A stretch of DNA of 64,000 nt from Alkalibacterium sp. (lineage in GTDB: Bacteria; Bacillota; Bacilli; Lactobacillales; Carnobacteriaceae_A), in the NCBI GenBank assembly GCA_020832185.1, contig JAFIFE010000014.1, positions 186,001 through 250,000 on the forward strand, read 5' to 3'. Below the pieces are notes generated by a model, which saw only the letters and a program-made list of their open reading frames with translations, ran no database searches and was not told where the DNA came from. The translations under genes and the position numbers were made by a program. How positions within the stretch are numbered: position 1 is the stretch's first letter; every line of letters begins with the position of its first letter. Shown here piece by piece: positions 1 to 26,759 of the stretch.

Positions 1-321
1 TAAAGTAAAGGCTTTAAATGGTTCCTTCTCCAGATGATCCAGTTTAAACTTAGCTTCTTTGAAGACGTTAGTCAAAATGGCTTGCTTGCCGGCTAACACT
101 TCGTTTCTTCTTTTAATATCGAGGGTATTCTTTCTGATTGTATACTCCTGCTCGTAACTTGCTTTGATTTCTTCTTTAGTTTTTGCTCGTTTCTGTACTT
201 CTTCTGCTTCAGCTGCCTGAACGTCATCTTCAGCCTGTACTTTGGCTTCTTCGACCTCTTGTCTGATTGCAGCTTTTTCTTTTTCAACGACGCGTTCTGT
301 TAGTAATTTTAAATCCGCCAT
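1..321 (-). CDS. ntpE: V-type ATPase subunit E (partial, 3' end outside window)
   Basis: Only the first 107 codons are present; the reading frame runs off the left edge of the window. The start codon at 321 follows a GGAGG-type ribosome binding site, and the protein begins MADLKLLTERVVEKEK. What can be seen is a highly charged helical segment rich in Glu, Lys, Ala and Gln, as expected for the N-terminal coiled coil of the peripheral stalk subunit E. In E. hirae the order is ntpF-I-K-E-C-G-A-B-D, and this gene sits exactly where ntpE should be, 112 bases after ntpK. Subunit E joins the cytoplasmic catalytic head to the membrane sector. The identification rests on gene order and composition rather than on a catalytic motif. 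Confidence 0.85.
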   Translation of the reverse strand, partial: MADLKLLTERVVEKEKAAIRQEVEEAKVQAEDDVQAAEAEEVQKRAKTKEEIKASYEQEYTIRKNTLDIKRRNEVLAGKQAILTNVFKEAKFKLDHLEKEPFKAFTL

Positions 322-433: not shown

Positions 434-910
434 TTACATGAAGATGATCATCATCAAGGAAATAACGAAACCTAAGATAGCGTACGTTTCTACCATAGCT
501 GAGAATATAATCCCTTTAGTTGTATGTTCAGGTTTTTGTGCTAAGATCTGCATTGCCGCTACTGAAACGCGTCCTTGTAAAGCACCAGACACTAGTCCTG
601 TGAATCCTACTGGAAGACCAACCATCATGTAATACCATCCAGTTGAAACGTCAAGGTTAGTTGACAAGTTGATGATGATCAACAATCCAATAACGAACCC
701 GTAAAGACCCTGTGTTGCTGGAAGCATTTGTAACACTAAAGCTAAACCAAATTTTTCCGGTTGTTCTTTAGTCAATGCAGCAGCAGCTTCACCAGCTGAA
801 CCAACACCTCTTGAAGATCCAATACCTGACAAAATTACAGCCAGCCCTACACCAATTGCTCCAAATACAAATCCTAAATTGTCACCAAAAAACATTTCAA
901 AGTTACTCAT
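434..910 (-). CDS. ntpK: V-type ATPase proteolipid subunit K (c-ring)
   Basis: The product has 158 residues and four membrane segments in two hairpins, as in the duplicated V-type c subunit that forms the rotor ring. The chosen start is the second ATG, which lies 9 bases after GGAGG; an ATG two codons upstream is only 3 bases away. The residues matching the sodium ligands of E. hirae NtpK are all present: L63, T66 and Q67 in PATQGLYG, Q112 in SGALQGR, and the essential carboxylate E141 in MVETYAILGF. This supports a sodium-coupled rather than a proton-coupled enzyme. The gene lies between ntpI and ntpE in the usual ntp order. Confidence 0.96.
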   Translation of the reverse strand: MSNFEMFFGDNLGFVFGAIGVGLAVILSGIGSSRGVGSAGEAAAALTKEQPEKFGLALVLQMLPATQGLYGFVIGLLIIINLSTNLDVSTGWYYMMVGLPVGFTGLVSGALQGRVSVAAMQILAQKPEHTTKGIIFSAMVETYAILGFVISLMMIIFM

Positions 911-943
911 TATCATATTCCTCCATTAATTAATTATATTTTT

Positions 944-2905
944 TTACTGATTATTGTTATCTTCCATCCAAATATGTTTTTCCAGCATTTTCAGCGGAGT
1001 CAGTGGTCTTCCGCCACCTTCAAAGAATTTACCGAAGAACTCAACATATTGTAAACGTGACGTATGCACGTACGCACTTAAGAATGTTAATGCGATATTT
1101 AGTGCATGCAGCGCAACAATTATTAGAATTCCTACAGTAAAACGCGCGATAGGTGGTAAAAATCCGATGATCATATTGAATGCCATAGCGATATTCGCAC
1201 TTGCGACTCCCAGTGCCATTAATCTGGTGTAACTTACAATATCTCCTACATATCCAGAGATTCCATATAAGTTATACGCACCTAATCCGAATCCTAAAGC
1301 TTTATTAGAACTGGACATCGCAGATACTAGGAGTATTCCGACAGCATTTATAACTACCAGCCCGATACCCAATTGAGTCACTAGCTGGTTATTTAACAGC
1401 ATGGCACCGGCTATCCATAAAATAAAACCGATGAGCATAAGGAACCAGGCATACCCGTCAACATAAGAAGACGCTCTCTGTCCCTGTCTGTTTTTTATCA
1501 TCCCATTTAAGATCAATCCATAAAGTAAGTGAATCAACCCTAATACGACAGAAAATGCCATAATTTCCAGGACATCATCCTGCAGTGAAAAGACTTGTAT
1601 CGGCAGCTCTACACCGAAGAAACTACCAAAGAACACACCAAATGCCATTGTCGGATACGATAGTATATGAAGGAACTTGATGAAATTCCCCATAGACCCT
1701 TCTATATTAAACACTTTCAATGCATACAGTGTCGCACCAAATAGTAATATCCCATATCCTAAATCAGCACTCATAATTCCAAAGAAAACCATAAAGAACG
1801 GCATCATTAATGGAGTCGGGTCGACTTCATCGTATTTAGGATAACTGAACATTTTGGTAATCATTTCAAATGGACTGACTAATGTATTGTTTTTCAGGAC
1901 AACTGGAACTTCTGAAAATTCTTTCATCTTGATATCGTCAGAAAGAATAGCTACTTCATTTTCACCAATGGTTTGTTCTACATTGGCTTTCAGCTGCTCT
2001 ACTTTTTCTTCTTCGATCCACCCTGATAATAGGAACAAGTGATTACTGTCGATAAATAGTGACTGAGCCGTTTGTCTTTCAGAAATATTATAATAATACT
2101 CTTCAGCCAATTCTAAATCTTTGTGCAGACTCTGCCATTTCCTCATAGTATCAATAGTCGCTTGTTTTTCTTCGCGCAGTTCTTTCTGAGATGTCAAATT
2201 TTTATATAAGGCATCTTCAGGTAAAACATCATGTGTATAGTTTAACGCTCTGTAGCTATACTGCCCGATCAGCTGATCGAAGTTGGTCTTTTCTTCTTTT
2301 GGAAAAATAATGAGATAGGCCACTTCATCGCTGCGTCTGTAGACTTCGTCAAAATATATTTTGCCGTTATATTTTAGCGATTCAATTAATTCTTCAGCAT
2401 GCTCTTTGTCTACTGACCCAACCACGACTTCCATCAATTTAAAGCCATTAATTTCTTCCGGCATAAAATTGAGCGAACGCCATTTTCTCAAGTACTCTTC
2501 TTCCTGCTTTAAATCTTTCAGATTTTCATCTAACTGATTTATTTTATGTTCCATGTTGGACACTTTTTCCAGTGTCTCATCTATGTTCGCTTGCTCCACA
2601 TGATTCTCAAGATCTTTCAATGTGTAGACTTCTCTTTTGGATTTTAATTTTTCGATCAGTCCAGGCTGATCAACATATTCTTTTAAATAATTCAATGAAT
2701 ATTCAATATCCTGAAGCCGAGTATCCATTTCTGTAGAGGCCTTGCCAGATACAGCAGTGTCGAATCCTTTGAGCAGTTCTTCTTCTATATTATCTGCAAC
2801 TGGAATAATTTCCAGACTTTGCATTTCCTGAACGCTTTTCAAAAGCGCTTCTTTATTAACATGTTCAGCTAATAAAGTCAGTTTTTTCATTTTGGCTATG
2901 GCCAT
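944..2905 (-). CDS. ntpI: V-type ATPase subunit I (a subunit, stator and ion channel)
   Basis: The product has 653 residues: an N-terminal cytoplasmic half of about 340 residues rich in coiled coil, then a hydrophobic half with about seven or eight membrane segments. Near the C-terminus the motif SYTRLMALGVAS carries the expected essential arginine, near residue 561, which faces the c-ring carboxylate during ion translocation. The start lies 41 bases inside the 3' end of ntpF, so translation is probably coupled. A GAGGAGG site is 12 bases before the ATG, which is long spacing. An in-frame ATG five codons later is a weaker alternative start. Confidence 0.95.
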   Translation of the reverse strand: MAIAKMKKLTLLAEHVNKEALLKSVQEMQSLEIIPVADNIEEELLKGFDTAVSGKASTEMDTRLQDIEYSLNYLKEYVDQPGLIEKLKSKREVYTLKDLENHVEQANIDETLEKVSNMEHKINQLDENLKDLKQEEEYLRKWRSLNFMPEEINGFKLMEVVVGSVDKEHAEELIESLKYNGKIYFDEVYRRSDEVAYLIIFPKEEKTNFDQLIGQYSYRALNYTHDVLPEDALYKNLTSQKELREEKQATIDTMRKWQSLHKDLELAEEYYYNISERQTAQSLFIDSNHLFLLSGWIEEEKVEQLKANVEQTIGENEVAILSDDIKMKEFSEVPVVLKNNTLVSPFEMITKMFSYPKYDEVDPTPLMMPFFMVFFGIMSADLGYGILLFGATLYALKVFNIEGSMGNFIKFLHILSYPTMAFGVFFGSFFGVELPIQVFSLQDDVLEIMAFSVVLGLIHLLYGLILNGMIKNRQGQRASSYVDGYAWFLMLIGFILWIAGAMLLNNQLVTQLGIGLVVINAVGILLVSAMSSSNKALGFGLGAYNLYGISGYVGDIVSYTRLMALGVASANIAMAFNMIIGFLPPIARFTVGILIIVALHALNIALTFLSAYVHTSRLQYVEFFGKFFEGGGRPLTPLKMLEKHIWMEDNNNQ

Positions 2906-3218
2906 ATCGATGCAATACCTCCTCTGCTATTCGATTGGCTAATCTATCTTTATTTAATTCATAAGTTTCATTATAACGTTGAACGTCACTTTCGACTTGC
3001 TCTTCAAGCAACTCTTCGTCTTTCTTAAGCATTGCTTCAATCTGTGCATCTTGATCCTTACGGTAAGCTGCAACTTCGTGTTCTGTCTGCTCTTTGATTT
3101 TATCGATCCTCAGAGCTTTTCCTGCTTTTATTTCTTTTAGTTCTTTATCTGCATTAGCTCTGAGTTCTTCAACCCTTGCCTCTGCTTCTTTAACATAATT
3201 TATAGCTTCACGATTCAT
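2865..3218 (-). CDS. ntpF: V-type ATPase subunit F/G family (peripheral stalk)
   Basis: This 117-residue, almost entirely helical protein is rich in Glu, Lys, Arg and Ala and contains the stretch ADKELKEIKAGKALR. This suits the long coiled-coil peripheral stalk partner of subunit E. It is the first gene of the ntp operon, the position of ntpF in E. hirae. The start is preceded by AGGGGGAG at about 6 bases spacing. The 3' end overlaps ntpI by 41 bases. Sequence identity in this family is low, so the name rests largely on position and composition. Confidence 0.85.
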   Translation of the reverse strand: MNREAINYVKEAEARVEELRANADKELKEIKAGKALRIDKIKEQTEHEVAAYRKDQDAQIEAMLKKDEELLEEQVESDVQRYNETYELNKDRLANRIAEEVLHRYGHSQNEKTDFIS

Positions 3219-3241
3219 TTTTCTCCCCCTTTCGACAAAAA

Positions 3242-3302
3242 GGGCGCAGCTAACAAGCTTTCTTCTCGCCCTAGAAGAAATAAACCTTGAAAGCTCACGC
3301 CC
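3242..3302 (-). promoter_or_regulatory. Structured leader RNA with terminator-like end before the V-ATPase operon
   Basis: Read on the minus strand, GGGCG (3302-3298), AGCU (3295-3292) and CAAG (3289-3286) pair in order with CGCCC (3246-3242), AGCU (3251-3248) and CUUG (3257-3254), interrupted by small internal loops. A run of five U (3241-3237) follows at once, as in an intrinsic terminator. Inside lies a perfect 8-bp hairpin, UUUCUUCU/AGAAGAAA (3280-3273 with 3266-3259), whose loop repeats GGGCG (3271-3267). Two GGGCG segments could therefore compete for the single CGCCC. The structure lies between a promoter and ntpF, so it may act as an attenuator. I cannot assign it to a known riboswitch class. 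Confidence 0.7.
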
Positions 3303-3336
3303 AACCGCACTTATATTATTTGTACTAACACTGTTT

Positions 3337-3366
3337 ATAATAGCACACTCTTAAAATTAGTGTCAA
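3337..3366 (-). promoter_or_regulatory. Promoter of the ntp operon
   Basis: On the minus strand TTGACA (3366-3361) is followed after 18 bases by TATTAT (3342-3337). This is a close match to the vegetative sigma factor consensus. Transcription would start near 3330, giving a leader of about 110 bases that contains the structured element before ntpF. Confidence 0.75.
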
Positions 3367-3420
3367 CTAGAACAAATTCACATAGCAGGGTATATGGGCG
3401 TATCAATATAATAAATAAAA

Positions 3421-4293
3421 TCAGTTTTGACGCATTTCTCCATAGCTGAATACTGCCAAAGATCCAAAGCCTGTGTGAGCGGCAACTGTTGGACCATAAC
3501 TTGATACAATAATTTCACTCGGATTCAAATGCTCAAGTAATTTTTCCTTAATAAGCTCAGCTTCTTCCGGCACTCCAACGTGCCCGATAAATAGTGCATG
3601 ATCTTCTACATCTTTTATATTATTGATCGTCTGATCCACCAGATGCTGGATCGATTTTTTTCGTCCTCTTACCTTGGCAACAGGGATCAGCTTTCCTTCC
3701 TGATTCATGACAATGATAGGTTTGACACTTAACAAGGACCCGACTGTCGCAGCAGTTGCTGATATACGCCCACCTCGCTGTAAATGTTTGATGTCATCAA
3801 CCGTTACCCATGAATGGTAATTCAGTTTGTTCTCCTCCACCCATTCAATGAGTGCTTCCTTGCTGAATCCTTCCTTTTTACGCTTAGCTGCCTCATAAAC
3901 TAATAATCCTTCTCCCAGACTAGCCGCCTTCGTATCAATGATGGATAAATCGATCTCACCATATTCCTCTTTGAGCATTTCCCTGGCTTGAATCGCATTG
4001 TTTAATGACCCTGAAAGGCCTGATGAGAAAGCCAAATAAACAGCAGGCATTCCTTTATCGATATATTCTTTAAACTTTTCAATATACGAATGCACATTCA
4101 CCTGAGACGTTGATGCGGTTTCTCCATTCTTTAAGCGCTGAAAAAATGCCGCCTTATCAAATGTTTTACCCATATCATCGATCAGATCTTCTCCACCGAT
4201 ATTAGTAGTAAAATTGACGATGTCCAAGTCATATTCTGCTACTATCTCCAGCGGTAAATCACAGCAAGAATCTGTAATTAACTGATAGTCCAC
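3421..4293 (-). CDS. DegV family fatty-acid-binding protein
   Basis: DegV-fold protein (FakB type), which presents a bound fatty acid to a kinase or carries lipid. Seen near the N-terminus is the family motif ITDSCCDLP. Later come GGRISATAATVGSLL and a C-terminal SYGPTVAAHTGFGSLAVF, typical of the lipid pocket and DegV C-terminal signature. The start is taken as the GTG at 4293 (290 residues), because AAAGGAG lies 11 bases upstream. The in-frame ATG at 4320 has no ribosome binding site and lies beside a possible -10 box (TATAAT, 4333-4328). The gene stands alone between the ntp operon and a divergent small gene. Which kinase it serves cannot be told from this window. Confidence 0.9.
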   Translation of the reverse strand: MDYQLITDSCCDLPLEIVAEYDLDIVNFTTNIGGEDLIDDMGKTFDKAAFFQRLKNGETASTSQVNVHSYIEKFKEYIDKGMPAVYLAFSSGLSGSLNNAIQAREMLKEEYGEIDLSIIDTKAASLGEGLLVYEAAKRKKEGFSKEALIEWVEENKLNYHSWVTVDDIKHLQRGGRISATAATVGSLLSVKPIIVMNQEGKLIPVAKVRGRKKSIQHLVDQTINNIKDVEDHALFIGHVGVPEEAELIKEKLLEHLNPSEIIVSSYGPTVAAHTGFGSLAVFSYGEMRQN

Positions 4294-4539
4294 TTTTTTA
4301 TCCACTCCTTTATTGAACACATCTATTATTATACGTTTAATTTAGTTAAATAGAAATAAAACTTCTGTATTTAGTGGGAAAAAACAGCAGCCATCAGTAT
4401 CATTTATTGCTCTTCCATCAAAGCGATTGATGGAGTCTCTTCTATAGAAGCTTTCCTTAATCAGTACTTTAATCTTATTCAATATAACTGCTTCATCATT
4501 ATACTAAAAATTAGTCTCTAAAAAATGTGGCGTTCTCCA

Positions 4540-4972: not shown

Positions 4973-5662
4973 TTATTTTCTTACACGACTGGATGGATCC
5001 AGTTTCTTCTCGAGCCAGGCCAATACGAGATCGGCTGCCACTGCCATTAAAGCTGTCGGTATAGCACCGGCTAAGATAATGGCGCCTCCTTGAGAGGCAT
5101 TAACTCCACGCTGGATGATATCACCTAAACCACCCGCGCCAATAAAGGTACCTATAGCTGTTACTCCAATAGCAACAACTAGAGCATTCCTCAGACCGGC
5201 CATGATGACTGATATGGCCATTGGGAGTTCCACTTTATAAGTCTGCTGCCATCTGGTCATTCCCATTCCTTTGGCTGCATCCATTAACGCATTGTCGACA
5301 TTCTTTACACCTGCGTATGTGTTTTTGACAATAGGTAATAAAGAGTACAGGAACACTGTGATAATAACTGTGTTGACACCTATACCAAATCCTAGCATCA
5401 ATATAGATAACATCGCTAGTGATGGGATAGTCTGGATAACATTGGCTGCACCAACGACCCAGTCAGCTAGTTTGCTGTGTCTTGCAATATAAAATCCTAT
5501 GGGTATGGCTACAATAGCGGCAAATAGGACGCCATAGATCGAAATGAGAAAATGTCTTGTAAATTGCTCCCACAAATATGCCCCATTTTCCTGAACATAA
5601 TAAATCAGCTGCTGAAATGTATTCATTTGAGTTAATTCATCTAATCCTTCTATATTAAGCAT
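4973..5662 (-). CDS. opuCD: Osmoprotectant ABC transporter permease OpuCD-type
   Basis: Inner-membrane permease of 229 residues with about five or six membrane segments and the binding-protein-dependent transport signature around DAAKGMGMTRWQQTYKVELP, which docks to the ATPase. It is the last gene of an opuCA-CB-CC-CD set in the same order as B. subtilis opuC. Its start follows a GGGGGG site and is one base after the opuCC stop. Glycine betaine, carnitine or choline import for osmoprotection is the family role; the exact substrate cannot be read from the sequence. Confidence 0.9.
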   Translation of the reverse strand: MLNIEGLDELTQMNTFQQLIYYVQENGAYLWEQFTRHFLISIYGVLFAAIVAIPIGFYIARHSKLADWVVGAANVIQTIPSLAMLSILMLGFGIGVNTVIITVFLYSLLPIVKNTYAGVKNVDNALMDAAKGMGMTRWQQTYKVELPMAISVIMAGLRNALVVAIGVTAIGTFIGAGGLGDIIQRGVNASQGGAIILAGAIPTALMAVAADLVLAWLEKKLDPSSRVRK

Positions 5663-5663
5663 T

Positions 5664-6623
5664 CTATTCCCCCCCTACTGGTTCAAGATACGGTTCGCTG
5701 TCTTCAAAATAATTGTTAGCTTCTAAAAACTCACGTGCCACAGTTGCCGGCTCTAGTAAGTATTCATCAGCGATGAAGTTCATTTCCTGCATGACTTCTG
5801 TCTCGATGATCCCTTCCATTTTCAGGAGGATTTCATCAAGTAACGGGTACTCTTCTACCGTTTCATACAATGCAGATGGACTGGCATCATATGGCGGGAA
5901 GAAATTCAGATCGTCTTCCAGGAAGACCAAGTCATAACTCGCAATTCTTCCATCTGTTGAATAGCCCAGGACGACGTCCATATTACCTGACTGGACTGCG
6001 TCATAAACCAGACCGATTTCCATTGGATAAACTGTGTCAAAATCAAATTGATAGGTGTCAAGAAAAGCTCTGTATCCATCTCCTTCACGTTCCATCCAGG
6101 AATTATCCACACCTGCAGTTAAGTCATCTGAAATAGGTGCTAGATCACTGATGGTCTCAAGGTTATGCTCTTGAGCCAGTTCGCTAGTAACAAGAAAGGC
6201 ATATGTGTTTTCAAATCCGTATGAAGGGTAGTATTTCATATTGTACTGTTCTCGAAACCCTTCTGTAACTGCCGCTCTTGCTTCATCAGGGTCAGTGATC
6301 GGGTCCATCCCCAAGTCACCCGTCAGTGCAGTACCTGTATAAGCGGCTGCCGCAACGTCAGCATCGCCTTGGGCAAGTGCTTGAGTGACCATTGTCGAAG
6401 AGCCAAGGTTCTGGATAACATCCGCATTGATCTCTGAGTAGTGATTAACCATACCCTGCACGATATATCCTAAAATAACCATTTCTGTAGATGATTGTGT
6501 CGCAATCGTTATATTTCCTTCTTCTGTCAAGCCTGCCCCTAATCCCGGGAGAGAACAAGCCGTAGTGAATACTGCGGTCGTCGCTAATGCAGCAAGTTTA
6601 ACATTTTTTGTCAATTTCATCAT
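5664..6623 (-). CDS. opuCC: Osmoprotectant-binding lipoprotein OpuCC-type
   Basis: Substrate-binding protein of 319 residues. The N-terminus is a lipoprotein signal, with a basic start, a short Ala/Thr-rich hydrophobic stretch and a cysteine at residue 23 in FTTACSLPG. The mature protein would be anchored to the outer face of the membrane. The body matches the OpuAC/ProX-like fold of quaternary amine binders, for example GNITIATQSSTEMVILG and SSTMVTQALAQGDADVAA. It captures betaine-like solutes for the two permeases that flank it. Confidence 0.9.
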   Translation of the reverse strand: MMKLTKNVKLAALATTAVFTTACSLPGLGAGLTEEGNITIATQSSTEMVILGYIVQGMVNHYSEINADVIQNLGSSTMVTQALAQGDADVAAAAYTGTALTGDLGMDPITDPDEARAAVTEGFREQYNMKYYPSYGFENTYAFLVTSELAQEHNLETISDLAPISDDLTAGVDNSWMEREGDGYRAFLDTYQFDFDTVYPMEIGLVYDAVQSGNMDVVLGYSTDGRIASYDLVFLEDDLNFFPPYDASPSALYETVEEYPLLDEILLKMEGIIETEVMQEMNFIADEYLLEPATVAREFLEANNYFEDSEPYLEPVGGE

Positions 6624-6637
6624 TATCAGCCTTTCTC

Positions 6638-7270
6638 TTATCCTGAGACTTGATTTCTCGGAGTCACCTTTTTTTCTACCATTCCCAATCCAAAATCGAC
6701 AAGCAATGCCAATAGTGTAACAGGGATCGTTCCACCTATAATTAACTCAGGAATATATAAGTTCAGTCCGTTGAAAATAAAATCTCCTAATCCACCGGCT
6801 CCAATGTATGAAGCGAGGGCTGCCCATGCAATAACATAGGTCCCTGACAAACGAATTCCCGCCATGATGACCGGAGCAGCTTGTGGCAACTCTACTTTTC
6901 TGATGAGCTGCATTTCAGTCATTCCCATGCCTCTTGCAGCATCAACTAAAGCTGGATTGACTCCCCTCATTCCAGTGTACGTGTTTCTCAAAATTGGGAG
7001 TAAGGAGTAAATAAATAGTGCGATTATTGCCGGTACTTGTCCAATTCCAAAGAGTGGAATCATTAAAGCCAGCAATGCCAGTGAAGGCACCGTCTGTAAT
7101 ATGGAAGCCAAGCCTATAACGGCTGTCGCTAATTTACCCGTTCTCGTAAGTCCAATGCCTAATGGTACAGCAACTATAACGCCTAAACCTAGTGCAATCA
7201 TTGAAATATATAAATGTTCCCAAATCAAACGCATCATTTGGGATCCATAATTAGCAAAAAAATCTGCCAT
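6638..7270 (-). CDS. opuCB: Osmoprotectant ABC transporter permease OpuCB-type
   Basis: Permease of 210 residues, paralogous to OpuCD. It has about five or six membrane segments and the conserved EAA-like loop [20 protein letters not shown]. It would form the heterodimeric membrane channel with OpuCD. It lies 11 bases after opuCA and 14 bases before opuCC, in one operon. Confidence 0.9.
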
Positions 7271-7281
7271 GTGTTTCCCTC

Positions 7282-8448
7282 CTATTCTGATTCTTGATAC
7301 TGAGTCGTTTCTAATGGAATACTTTCGACCTCTTCATCGTCACCCCAGATGGTATCGTAGACGATATCAACCAGTGAAGCTCTAGTAACAAGACCTTCAA
7401 GTTTGCCGGCTTCATTAACAACGGGTATGTTCTTATATCCTCGTTTCAACATTTTGTCGGCTACACTGCTCAGTAAAGTACCTGACTTAACATAATAGAC
7501 ATGAGACATGATTTCACTAACTGTCTCTGCTTTTTTACGATTCTTATTGATGCCTTCAAAATCAACAACCCCTTGAAGGACATGGTGCATATCTGTGACA
7601 AACAATGTATCCACTCTGCGGTCACGCATCACTCGAATCGATTCTGCTAGAGTCATATCTGAAGTAACAGTGATTGGTGTCTTAACCATTACCTGGTCAA
7701 CCGTCTGCATTGTCGAACGCTGCTGCAGGCGATCCTCACCCAAGAAACTTTCAACGAATTCATTGGCAGGTGCGGCTAATATATTGTCAGGTGTATCATA
7801 CTGAATGACTTTTCCTTCAGACATAATGGCAATTTTGTCAGCCAGCTTCAGTGCCTCATCCATGTCATGCGTTACAAAGACAACCGTTCTTCCCATCTCT
7901 TCCTGCAGATGTTTAACTAATTCTTGTAAAGCATCCCTAGTGATGGGGTCAAGTGCACCAAACGGCTCATCCATCAAGATAATATCCTGATTAGCTGCCA
8001 GTGCACGAATAACACCGATTCTCTGCTGCTGTCCACCAGAAAGCTCCTGCGGGTATCGGTCTAAAAATTCATTACCCATATCTACACGTTTCAGCAGTCG
8101 TTCAGCTGTTTCACGCATTTTATCTTTGTCCCACTTTAATAATTTCGGAACCATGACAATATTTTCATAAACAGTCATATGCGGCATCAGACCCGTTTGC
8201 TGAATGACATACCCAATTCTTCTTCTTAGCTCAACTGCATTTTCATCCTTAATGTTTTTCCCATCAATCAGAATCTCTCCAGAAGTAGAATCGATCATAC
8301 GGTTGATCATTCTCATCGTCGTCGTTTTCCCACTGCCTGACGTTCCAATCAGGACGACAAACTCACCTTCGTTAATAGTAAACGACACGTCATCTACTGC
8401 CTTAGTACCATCACCATAAATTTTTGACACATTTTTAAATTCAATCAT
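7282..8448 (-). CDS. opuCA: Osmoprotectant ABC transporter ATPase with CBS domains OpuCA-type
   Basis: ATPase of 388 residues. Walker A is [10 protein letters not shown] (about residue 35), the signature is LSGGQQQR and Walker B is [12 protein letters not shown], followed by an H-loop THDMDEAL. The C-terminal third (about 255-370) has two CBS repeats, seen as [19 protein letters not shown] and [17 protein letters not shown]. In related OpuA/OpuC ATPases these sense ionic strength or cyclic di-AMP. First gene of the operon; ribosome binding site AAAGGAGACA. Confidence 0.95.
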
Positions 8449-11040: not shown

Positions 11041-11096
11041 CAACGGAAGACGCCAATAGTTAAAACGGCATACTTCACCAATATAGTCTCAATTAA

Positions 11097-11186
11097 GTAC
11101 TCTTCCTACGCACGTATGAACGTACAGGTTCAAAGGGTCTGAACTTAAAGTTCACTCTCAGCCAATGCCATTGACTCCCCTAGTAC
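11097..11186 (-). promoter_or_regulatory. TPP riboswitch
   Basis: The minus strand carries the conserved thi-box elements in order: AGGGGAG, GGCTGAGAG, GACCCTTTGAACCTG and GCGTAGGAAG. P1 is closed by GUACU/AGUAC (11186-11182 with 11101-11097). Binding of thiamine pyrophosphate would favour the terminator downstream and switch off thiT. Confidence 0.95.
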
Positions 11187-11216
11187 AGTATCTATTGTTT
11201 ATTATATCGTAATTTT

Positions 11217-26573: not shown

Positions 26574-26611
26574 TAAAAAAAGCACCCTTATCCATGTAAG
26601 ATAAGAGTGCT
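26574..26611 (-). terminator. Attenuator terminator before pyrR
   Basis: On the minus strand AGCACTCTTATC pairs with GATAAGGGTGCT, followed by seven T. It lies between the PyrR box and the pyrR start. Confidence 0.9.
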
Positions 26612-26716
26612 GCCGATTGTTCTTTCAGGCAAAACAGGTACGAGTATACTGACTACCTGCTTAAAGGGTCCTATGTGTACTCACGGGTACGCATAGAGAT
26701 CCTGCTGCTCCTTCTT

Positions 26717-26730
26717 AGCCTCACTGGACT
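26717..26730 (-). promoter_or_regulatory. PyrR-binding box in the pyrR leader
   Basis: The minus strand reads AGUCCAGUGAGGCU, an exact match to the consensus ARUCCNGNGAGGYU. It lies about 30 bases after the predicted transcription start. Confidence 0.95.
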
Positions 26731-26759
26731 ATCTTTTAAAGGATTACTATTCAATTTAA

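Follow-up and report, generated by a model that had tools for sequence, protein, structure and literature searches.

According to the passages of White et al. (2022) on the Na+-I (DUF1646) riboswitches, the closest described systems, members of the class bind Na+ selectively, give read-through that depends on Na+ and induce a reporter, the ligand acting as in a genetic ON switch (PMC9337991). In the same passages, the class is described on genes for V-type ATPases in different enterococci and clostridia, and EF1492 is cited as a Term-seq example. EF1492 is listed elsewhere as V-type ATPase subunit F, and the E. faecalis ntp genes (EF1492-1500) were reported there to be up about 6-fold in 6.5% NaCl (PMC3995695). 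The passages of PMC7701990 on EF1492 and on riboswitches name no Na+ riboswitch. The nhaA-I and nhaA-II (Na+-II and Li+) riboswitches are also described as alkali-ion switches on transporter genes (PMC9646797, PMC9337991). Since White et al. describe this kind of switch and also its occurrence on V-ATPase genes, EF1492 being subunit F, the switch class and gene setting of the locus described here are known and carry low surprise. Alkalibacterium, Marinilactibacillus and some neighbours are added here to the enterococci and clostridia for which the riboswitch-operon pair was published, and the locus offers an explanation of how this Alkalibacterium may couple its Na+ pump to intracellular Na+. 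Among the matches listed, mostly from non-subscription literature, no title concerned a switch for Na+ in Alkalibacterium or Marinilactibacillus.

The window analyzed here is a stretch of 64,000 nucleotides of Alkalibacterium sp. DNA. NCBI places the genus in the Carnobacteriaceae (Lactobacillales), the family that a preliminary description of this DNA had assumed. A search of the whole window against Rfam at gathering level gave four matches, among them RF03071, the Na+-I (DUF1646) riboswitch aptamer, at 3260-3306 on the minus strand, with 48.5 bits against a gathering score of 40.5, an E value of 5.9e-07 in 64 kb, and coverage of the full model (positions 1-55 of 55). The aptamer is located between a promoter-like site and a predicted intrinsic terminator, upstream of an ntp operon, and the leader is composed as follows.

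3337..3366, minus strand: promoter-like site TTGACA-18-TATTAT, with TG before the second hexamer (consensus scan, 11/12)
3260..3306, minus strand: Na+-I (DUF1646) riboswitch aptamer (Rfam RF03071)
3287..3304, minus strand: aptamer stem P1, UUG/CAA and GGC/GCU, with a UU bulge and a 4-nt GUGA loop (RF03071 alignment)
3302-3298, minus strand: first GGGCG, the outer 5' arm (sequence)
3260..3279, minus strand: aptamer stem P2, with its GGGCG loop at 3271-3267 (RF03071 alignment, pair counts)
3280-3259, minus strand: hairpin UUUCUUCU/AGAAGAAA, 8 bp, loop AGGGCG (sequence)
3242..3302, minus strand: predicted intrinsic terminator stem (MFE fold, family alignment, swap test)
3246-3242, minus strand: CGCCC strand (sequence)
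3237..3241, minus strand: terminator U run, five U (sequence)
3223..3232, minus strand: Shine-Dalgarno-like, purine-rich AAAGGGGGAG (sequence; position before the ATG at 3218)
3218, minus strand: ATG start codon of ntpF (sequence)

The promoter, hairpin, GGGCG, CGCCC, five U and ntpF start had been pointed out in the preliminary description, and all of these parts were found at their minus-strand positions. The promoter, which had been called good, has 11 of the 12 hexamer letters but is to be taken as plausible rather than proven, since the 2 promoter-like sites in the consensus scan are no more than the 2.2 that shuffles give. The long terminator stem was absent from the output of a simple terminator scan, in our opinion because that scan takes only 3-8 nt loops. 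By eye, the terminator tail CCCUUU could also pair with AAAGGG of the downstream ribosome site (3227-3244, minus strand), and through this pairing a freed 3' arm might also influence translation after read-through.

The leader had been presented as unassigned, and as perhaps a member or a variant of the DUF1646/Na+-I class or else a new sensor. Membership is what the Rfam comparison returned, and a match above the gathering score makes it superfluous to call the leader unassigned, a variant or a new sensor; a new sensor class was rejected on the RF03071 match. The leader differs from nhaA-I and nhaA-II, the latter also proposed for comparison, in having no Rfam match to an NhaA-type family, either in the window at gathering level or in 2900-3700 at E values up to 10. 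Three further matches appeared in that 801-base search (2900-3700), with E values of 1.4 to 9.6, all under their own cut-offs. As in the described class, the aptamer is complete, has the P1/P2 layout and retains the conserved P1 base and P2 loop, seen as GGUUGGGC, CUUUCAAG, GCUUUCAAG and a GGG-G loop in the RF03071 alignment; the P1 letters are invariant across the 20-row family alignment, and an eighth pair lengthens P2 to 3280/3259. The sole large departure from the RF03071 consensus is that P1 is 8 positions shorter and capped directly by the GUGA loop. In the 2.64 Mb genome, the window's own match is the one RF03071 match above cut-off. A second match (G000:C1:69934-69974; 17 bits, E 0.58) was discarded as chance, on score alone; at an E limit of 1, RF03071 also matches 7 of 14 control genomes, and at E 0.001 it matches 1 of 14.

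White et al. leave room for RNAs of the DUF1646 fold that respond to a changed ligand, for example another ion (PMC9337991). For this leader we consider such a change extremely improbable, given that the consensus core positions are retained and that a Na+-type V-ATPase is under its control. The leader is almost certainly a full-length Na+-I (DUF1646) riboswitch that switches ON the ntp Na+-V-ATPase operon. That operon reads ntpFIKECGABD, and its first genes lie within the window.

2865..3218, minus strand: ntpF-like gene, 117 aa, first in the operon (operon place; tblastn conservation in relatives)
944..2905, minus strand: ntpI, V-ATPase subunit I (PF01496 above cut-off)
434..916, minus strand: ntpK, Na+-type rotor subunit (NF005124 above cut-off)
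1..321, minus strand: start of ntpE (Pfam; E subunit just below cut-off)

Beyond the window edge (L081, corresponding to G000:C1:177001-189400), the operon runs on as C-G-A-B-D by Pfam; the gene for the F/14-kDa subunit is called ntpG here after what we take to be the gene order of E. hirae. Downstream of ntpD, where ntpH and ntpJ would presumably follow by the same order, we observed instead a patatin-like phospholipase gene (PF01734; L081:2120-3481, minus strand). The NtpF-like protein had no Pfam or NCBIfam match. NtpI also matched NCBIfam subunit I models, all under the model cut-offs, and its closest named homologue, from Alkalibacterium olivapovliticus, is 85% identical. Aligned with its Enterococcus hirae counterpart (2BL2; E 3.7e-52), NtpK retains L61, T64, Q65, Q110 and E139 (5/5), the residues described as Na+ ligands of the E. 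hirae protein (PMC2359735). Judging from the sequence, the leader precedes an operon for a Na+-type V-ATPase, as had been proposed: the genes are those claimed, and NtpK has the Na+ ligands.

Among relatives, the aptamer was found above cut-off in 20 of 27 genomes of the host family, and in all 20 of these loci an ntpF homologue begins 40-44 nt downstream of it. In the seven family genomes without the aptamer, the ntpI homologue was strong in three (E 2e-128 or better), weak in two and absent in two. We also examined 54 named ntpI loci, of which 18 had RF03071 above cut-off within 1 kb or less upstream of ntpI: all 11 from Alkalibacterium, all 4 from Marinilactibacillus, and one each from Lacticigenium, Atopococcus and a Carnobacterium MAG. 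In the other 36, which include Trichococcus, Amphibacillus and Granulicatella, RF03071 did not exceed its cut-off in the roughly 1 kb preceding ntpI, or in a shorter stretch at contig ends. The pairing of aptamer and ntp genes is common and not universal, because ntpI homologues exist in family genomes that are free of the aptamer. At the level of the order, RF03071 was present in 156 of 395 sampled genomes at E 0.001 and in 121 above cut-off. A V-ATPase homologue lay downstream in 27 of 59 leaders taken from outside the family, a proportion that is not a rate, because these leaders were best-scoring or hand-picked.

The preliminary description had read the long interrupted stem as a terminator, and the predicted folds agree: the RNA from 3306 to 3235 folds into this stem with an energy of -28.4 kcal/mol (z -3.2), which 1 of 200 shuffles equalled, and two longer stretches gave z -2.4 (3/200 shuffles as good) and z -2.2 (4/200). 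The predicted terminator has a 5' arm (3302-3285) that overlaps P1 and a 3' arm at 3257-3242, with P2 mostly retained inside. Since the 5' arm uses the P1 strands, the aptamer and the terminator would be mutually exclusive; this exclusion by a terminator before the U run, together with the V-ATPase context, is a further likeness to the Na+-I class. By published description the leader of E. faecalis EF1492 is also of the same class and also precedes a V-ATPase subunit F gene, the host here being of another genus. The aptamer segment alone (3306-3259) folds with z -0.3 (64/200 shuffles as good), a behaviour that a ligand-dependent fold may show.

The terminator fold, at -28.4 kcal/mol, lies far below the aptamer-enforced fold, at -12.4 kcal/mol, so that Na+ would have to act during transcription. 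When the RNA was lengthened two nucleotides at a time from 40 to 72 nt, the inner terminator pairs appeared from 58 nt and the stem was complete at 66 nt; before 58 nt, another small hairpin occupies the place of P1 in the minimum fold. Since the Rfam P1 was missing from the minimum fold at every length of this 40-72 nt walk, the ligand-bound fold is taken from the family model. The high stability of the terminator in silico relative to the aptamer fold, and the lack of any folding advantage of the isolated aptamer over its shuffles, would also suit an ordinary constitutive terminator or attenuator, one that senses no ligand and merely resembles the aptamer. We regard this as very improbable, as the RF03071 match is full length with the conserved P1 base and P2 loop, the aptamer keeps its place before ntpF throughout the 20 family loci that have it, and the P1 pairs are invariant, whereas terminator pairing alone would allow drift.

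Besides the aptamer match, the P1-overlapping predicted terminator, the conservation, the covariation and the gene context observed here, the reading of the leader as a Na+-I riboswitch draws on the experimentally tested family, by analogy with which Na+ would bind and the direction and kinetics of the response would follow. At low Na+, the P1 strands GGGCGU...GAGCU...CAAG would pair with CUUG...AGCU-GCGCCC ahead of the U run, forming the terminator and halting transcription. At high Na+, the P1 base and the GGG of the P2 loop would close round the ion so that P1 could not open, the terminator would be blocked and the pump genes would be transcribed (ON). The ON direction fits the physiology, because the ntp genes of E. 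faecalis rise in NaCl.

The pairings were followed in 79 leaders: the 20 that make up all family matches, 19 further best-scoring loci and 40 hand-chosen for spread, with L002 and L081 excluded. Aptamer positions were taken from the search coordinates, as a regular expression recovered only 43 of the 79; these comprise 72 distinct aptamers, and duplicates are included in the swap tests. The swap tests and platform counts cover 72 loci, the 7 leaders without a U run 8-26 nt past the aptamer having been dropped; all 7 have V-ATPase genes downstream. The 54 named ntpI loci are outside the swap tests, several of them being the same records as family loci.

The alignment of related leaders, suggested in the preliminary description, revealed conserved stems. 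P1 and P2 are paired in 99.0% of cells across the 17 distinct leaders of the family, against 51-73% in slid versions, and the terminator in 96.6%, against 24-53%. The P1 pairs show zero variation in these leaders, and P2 and the terminator each have one pair changed on both sides. Within the family, the covariation score of the aptamer was equalled by 52 of 500 shuffles, some slid versions being as high or higher, and that of the terminator by 23 of 500; covariation inside the family is slight. Across the 72 loci, the duplex of the P1 5' strand with the 3' arm had a native mean of -11.78 kcal/mol, versus -8.50 kcal/mol when arms were swapped (sd 0.27). The native value was matched by 0 of 5000 shuffles over the 72 loci and by 5 of 5000 in the 20 family loci; with a cruder 8-base arm score, the corresponding figures were 0 of 2000 and 370 of 2000. 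Direct compensations in the terminator arms were seen as GGGCGCAAGC with GCUUGCGCUC (L050) and GGGUAGA with UCUACCC (L065). Judged on these sequences, the terminator arms covary across the 72 leaders of the order, in tests whose outcome is inflated by common descent and by some repeated rows.

As for how the leader would switch, it had been proposed that the outer GGGCG and the GGGCG of the P2 loop are alternative partners for a single CGCCC strand. Both pairings are possible in this leader (row L001), with duplexes of -16.5 kcal/mol for the outer partner and -11.3 kcal/mol for the loop, and over the 72 loci the loop pairing has a weak lean to the native arms (305/5000 shuffles reach native). 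When the loci are taken apart, shuffles reach the native loop value in 4574 of 5000 cases in the family, 1449 of 5000 in other V-ATPase loci and 415 of 5000 in other loci; the P1 pairing is stronger than the loop pairing in 69 of 71 loci (the loop was not found in 1 of the 72), and the GGG of the P2 loop is described as part of the Na+-responsive core (PMC9337991). A choice of this kind seems highly improbable to us, and the loop GGGCG as the alternative partner was rejected on the swap-test duplex energies. The second GGGCG can pair with CGCCC, as had been noted, but the swap test does not make it a clearly conserved alternative partner. What stands of the proposed switch logic is the competition between terminator and aptamer, the alternatives being P1 and the terminator instead of two partners of CGCCC.

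Fold prediction sets the outer 3' arm of the terminator against the P1 5' strand in 58 of the 72 loci (20/20 in the family, 19/20 in other V-ATPase loci and 19/32 in other loci), and P2 is kept in the terminator folds of 70. The remaining 14 are L045 and 13 that, by eye, use the P1 3' strand. The predicted terminator here dismantles P1 and mostly keeps P2, unlike the published kefB terminator, which forms at the expense of P2 (PMC9337991). This difference between a predicted P1-breaking terminator and that of kefB is small, and we offer it as a lead only. There may be an even chance that the Na+-I riboswitch of Lactobacillales is generally P1-swallowing, with the terminator 5' arm taken from a P1 strand and P2 as the apical hairpin, unlike kefB, and that P1-loop bases free of aptamer duties co-evolve with the 3' arm and thereby set the switching threshold. 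The order-wide covariation of the terminator arms is a ready data set on the coupling of Na+ riboswitch and terminator.

Two other arrangements were observed among the leaders. In 13 loci of one family (f9; L022-L030, L032, L033, L037 and L038), the predicted terminator uses the P1 3' strand, CUUUCAAG pairing with CUUGAAAG, and no ntpF, ntpI or ntpK homologue was found in the 1.5 kb downstream. Five V-ATPase leaders from outside the host family (L043, L048, L053, L055 and L060) lack a U run shortly after the aptamer; their predicted fold has a pairing partner for P1 and then, about 50-80 nt downstream, another strong hairpin with a U run. These five perhaps represent a two-hairpin platform.

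Elsewhere in the window, the Rfam search located a TPP riboswitch (RF00059) at 11085-11191 on the minus strand, with 68.2 bits, and a PyrR binding site (RF00515) at 26575-26746 on the minus strand, with 54.2 bits against a cut-off of 54; the latter must hold insertions, because its 172 bases span a model of 115 positions. Upstream of the ntp operon, at 4973-8448 on the minus strand, there are glycine-betaine-type ABC transporter genes, encoding an OpuAC-like binding protein, a permease and an ATPase with CBS domains, with a second permease-like ORF at 6638-7270. A DegV-family gene (3421-4320) lies between them and the ntp operon, and osmotic and Na+ functions adjoin at this locus.
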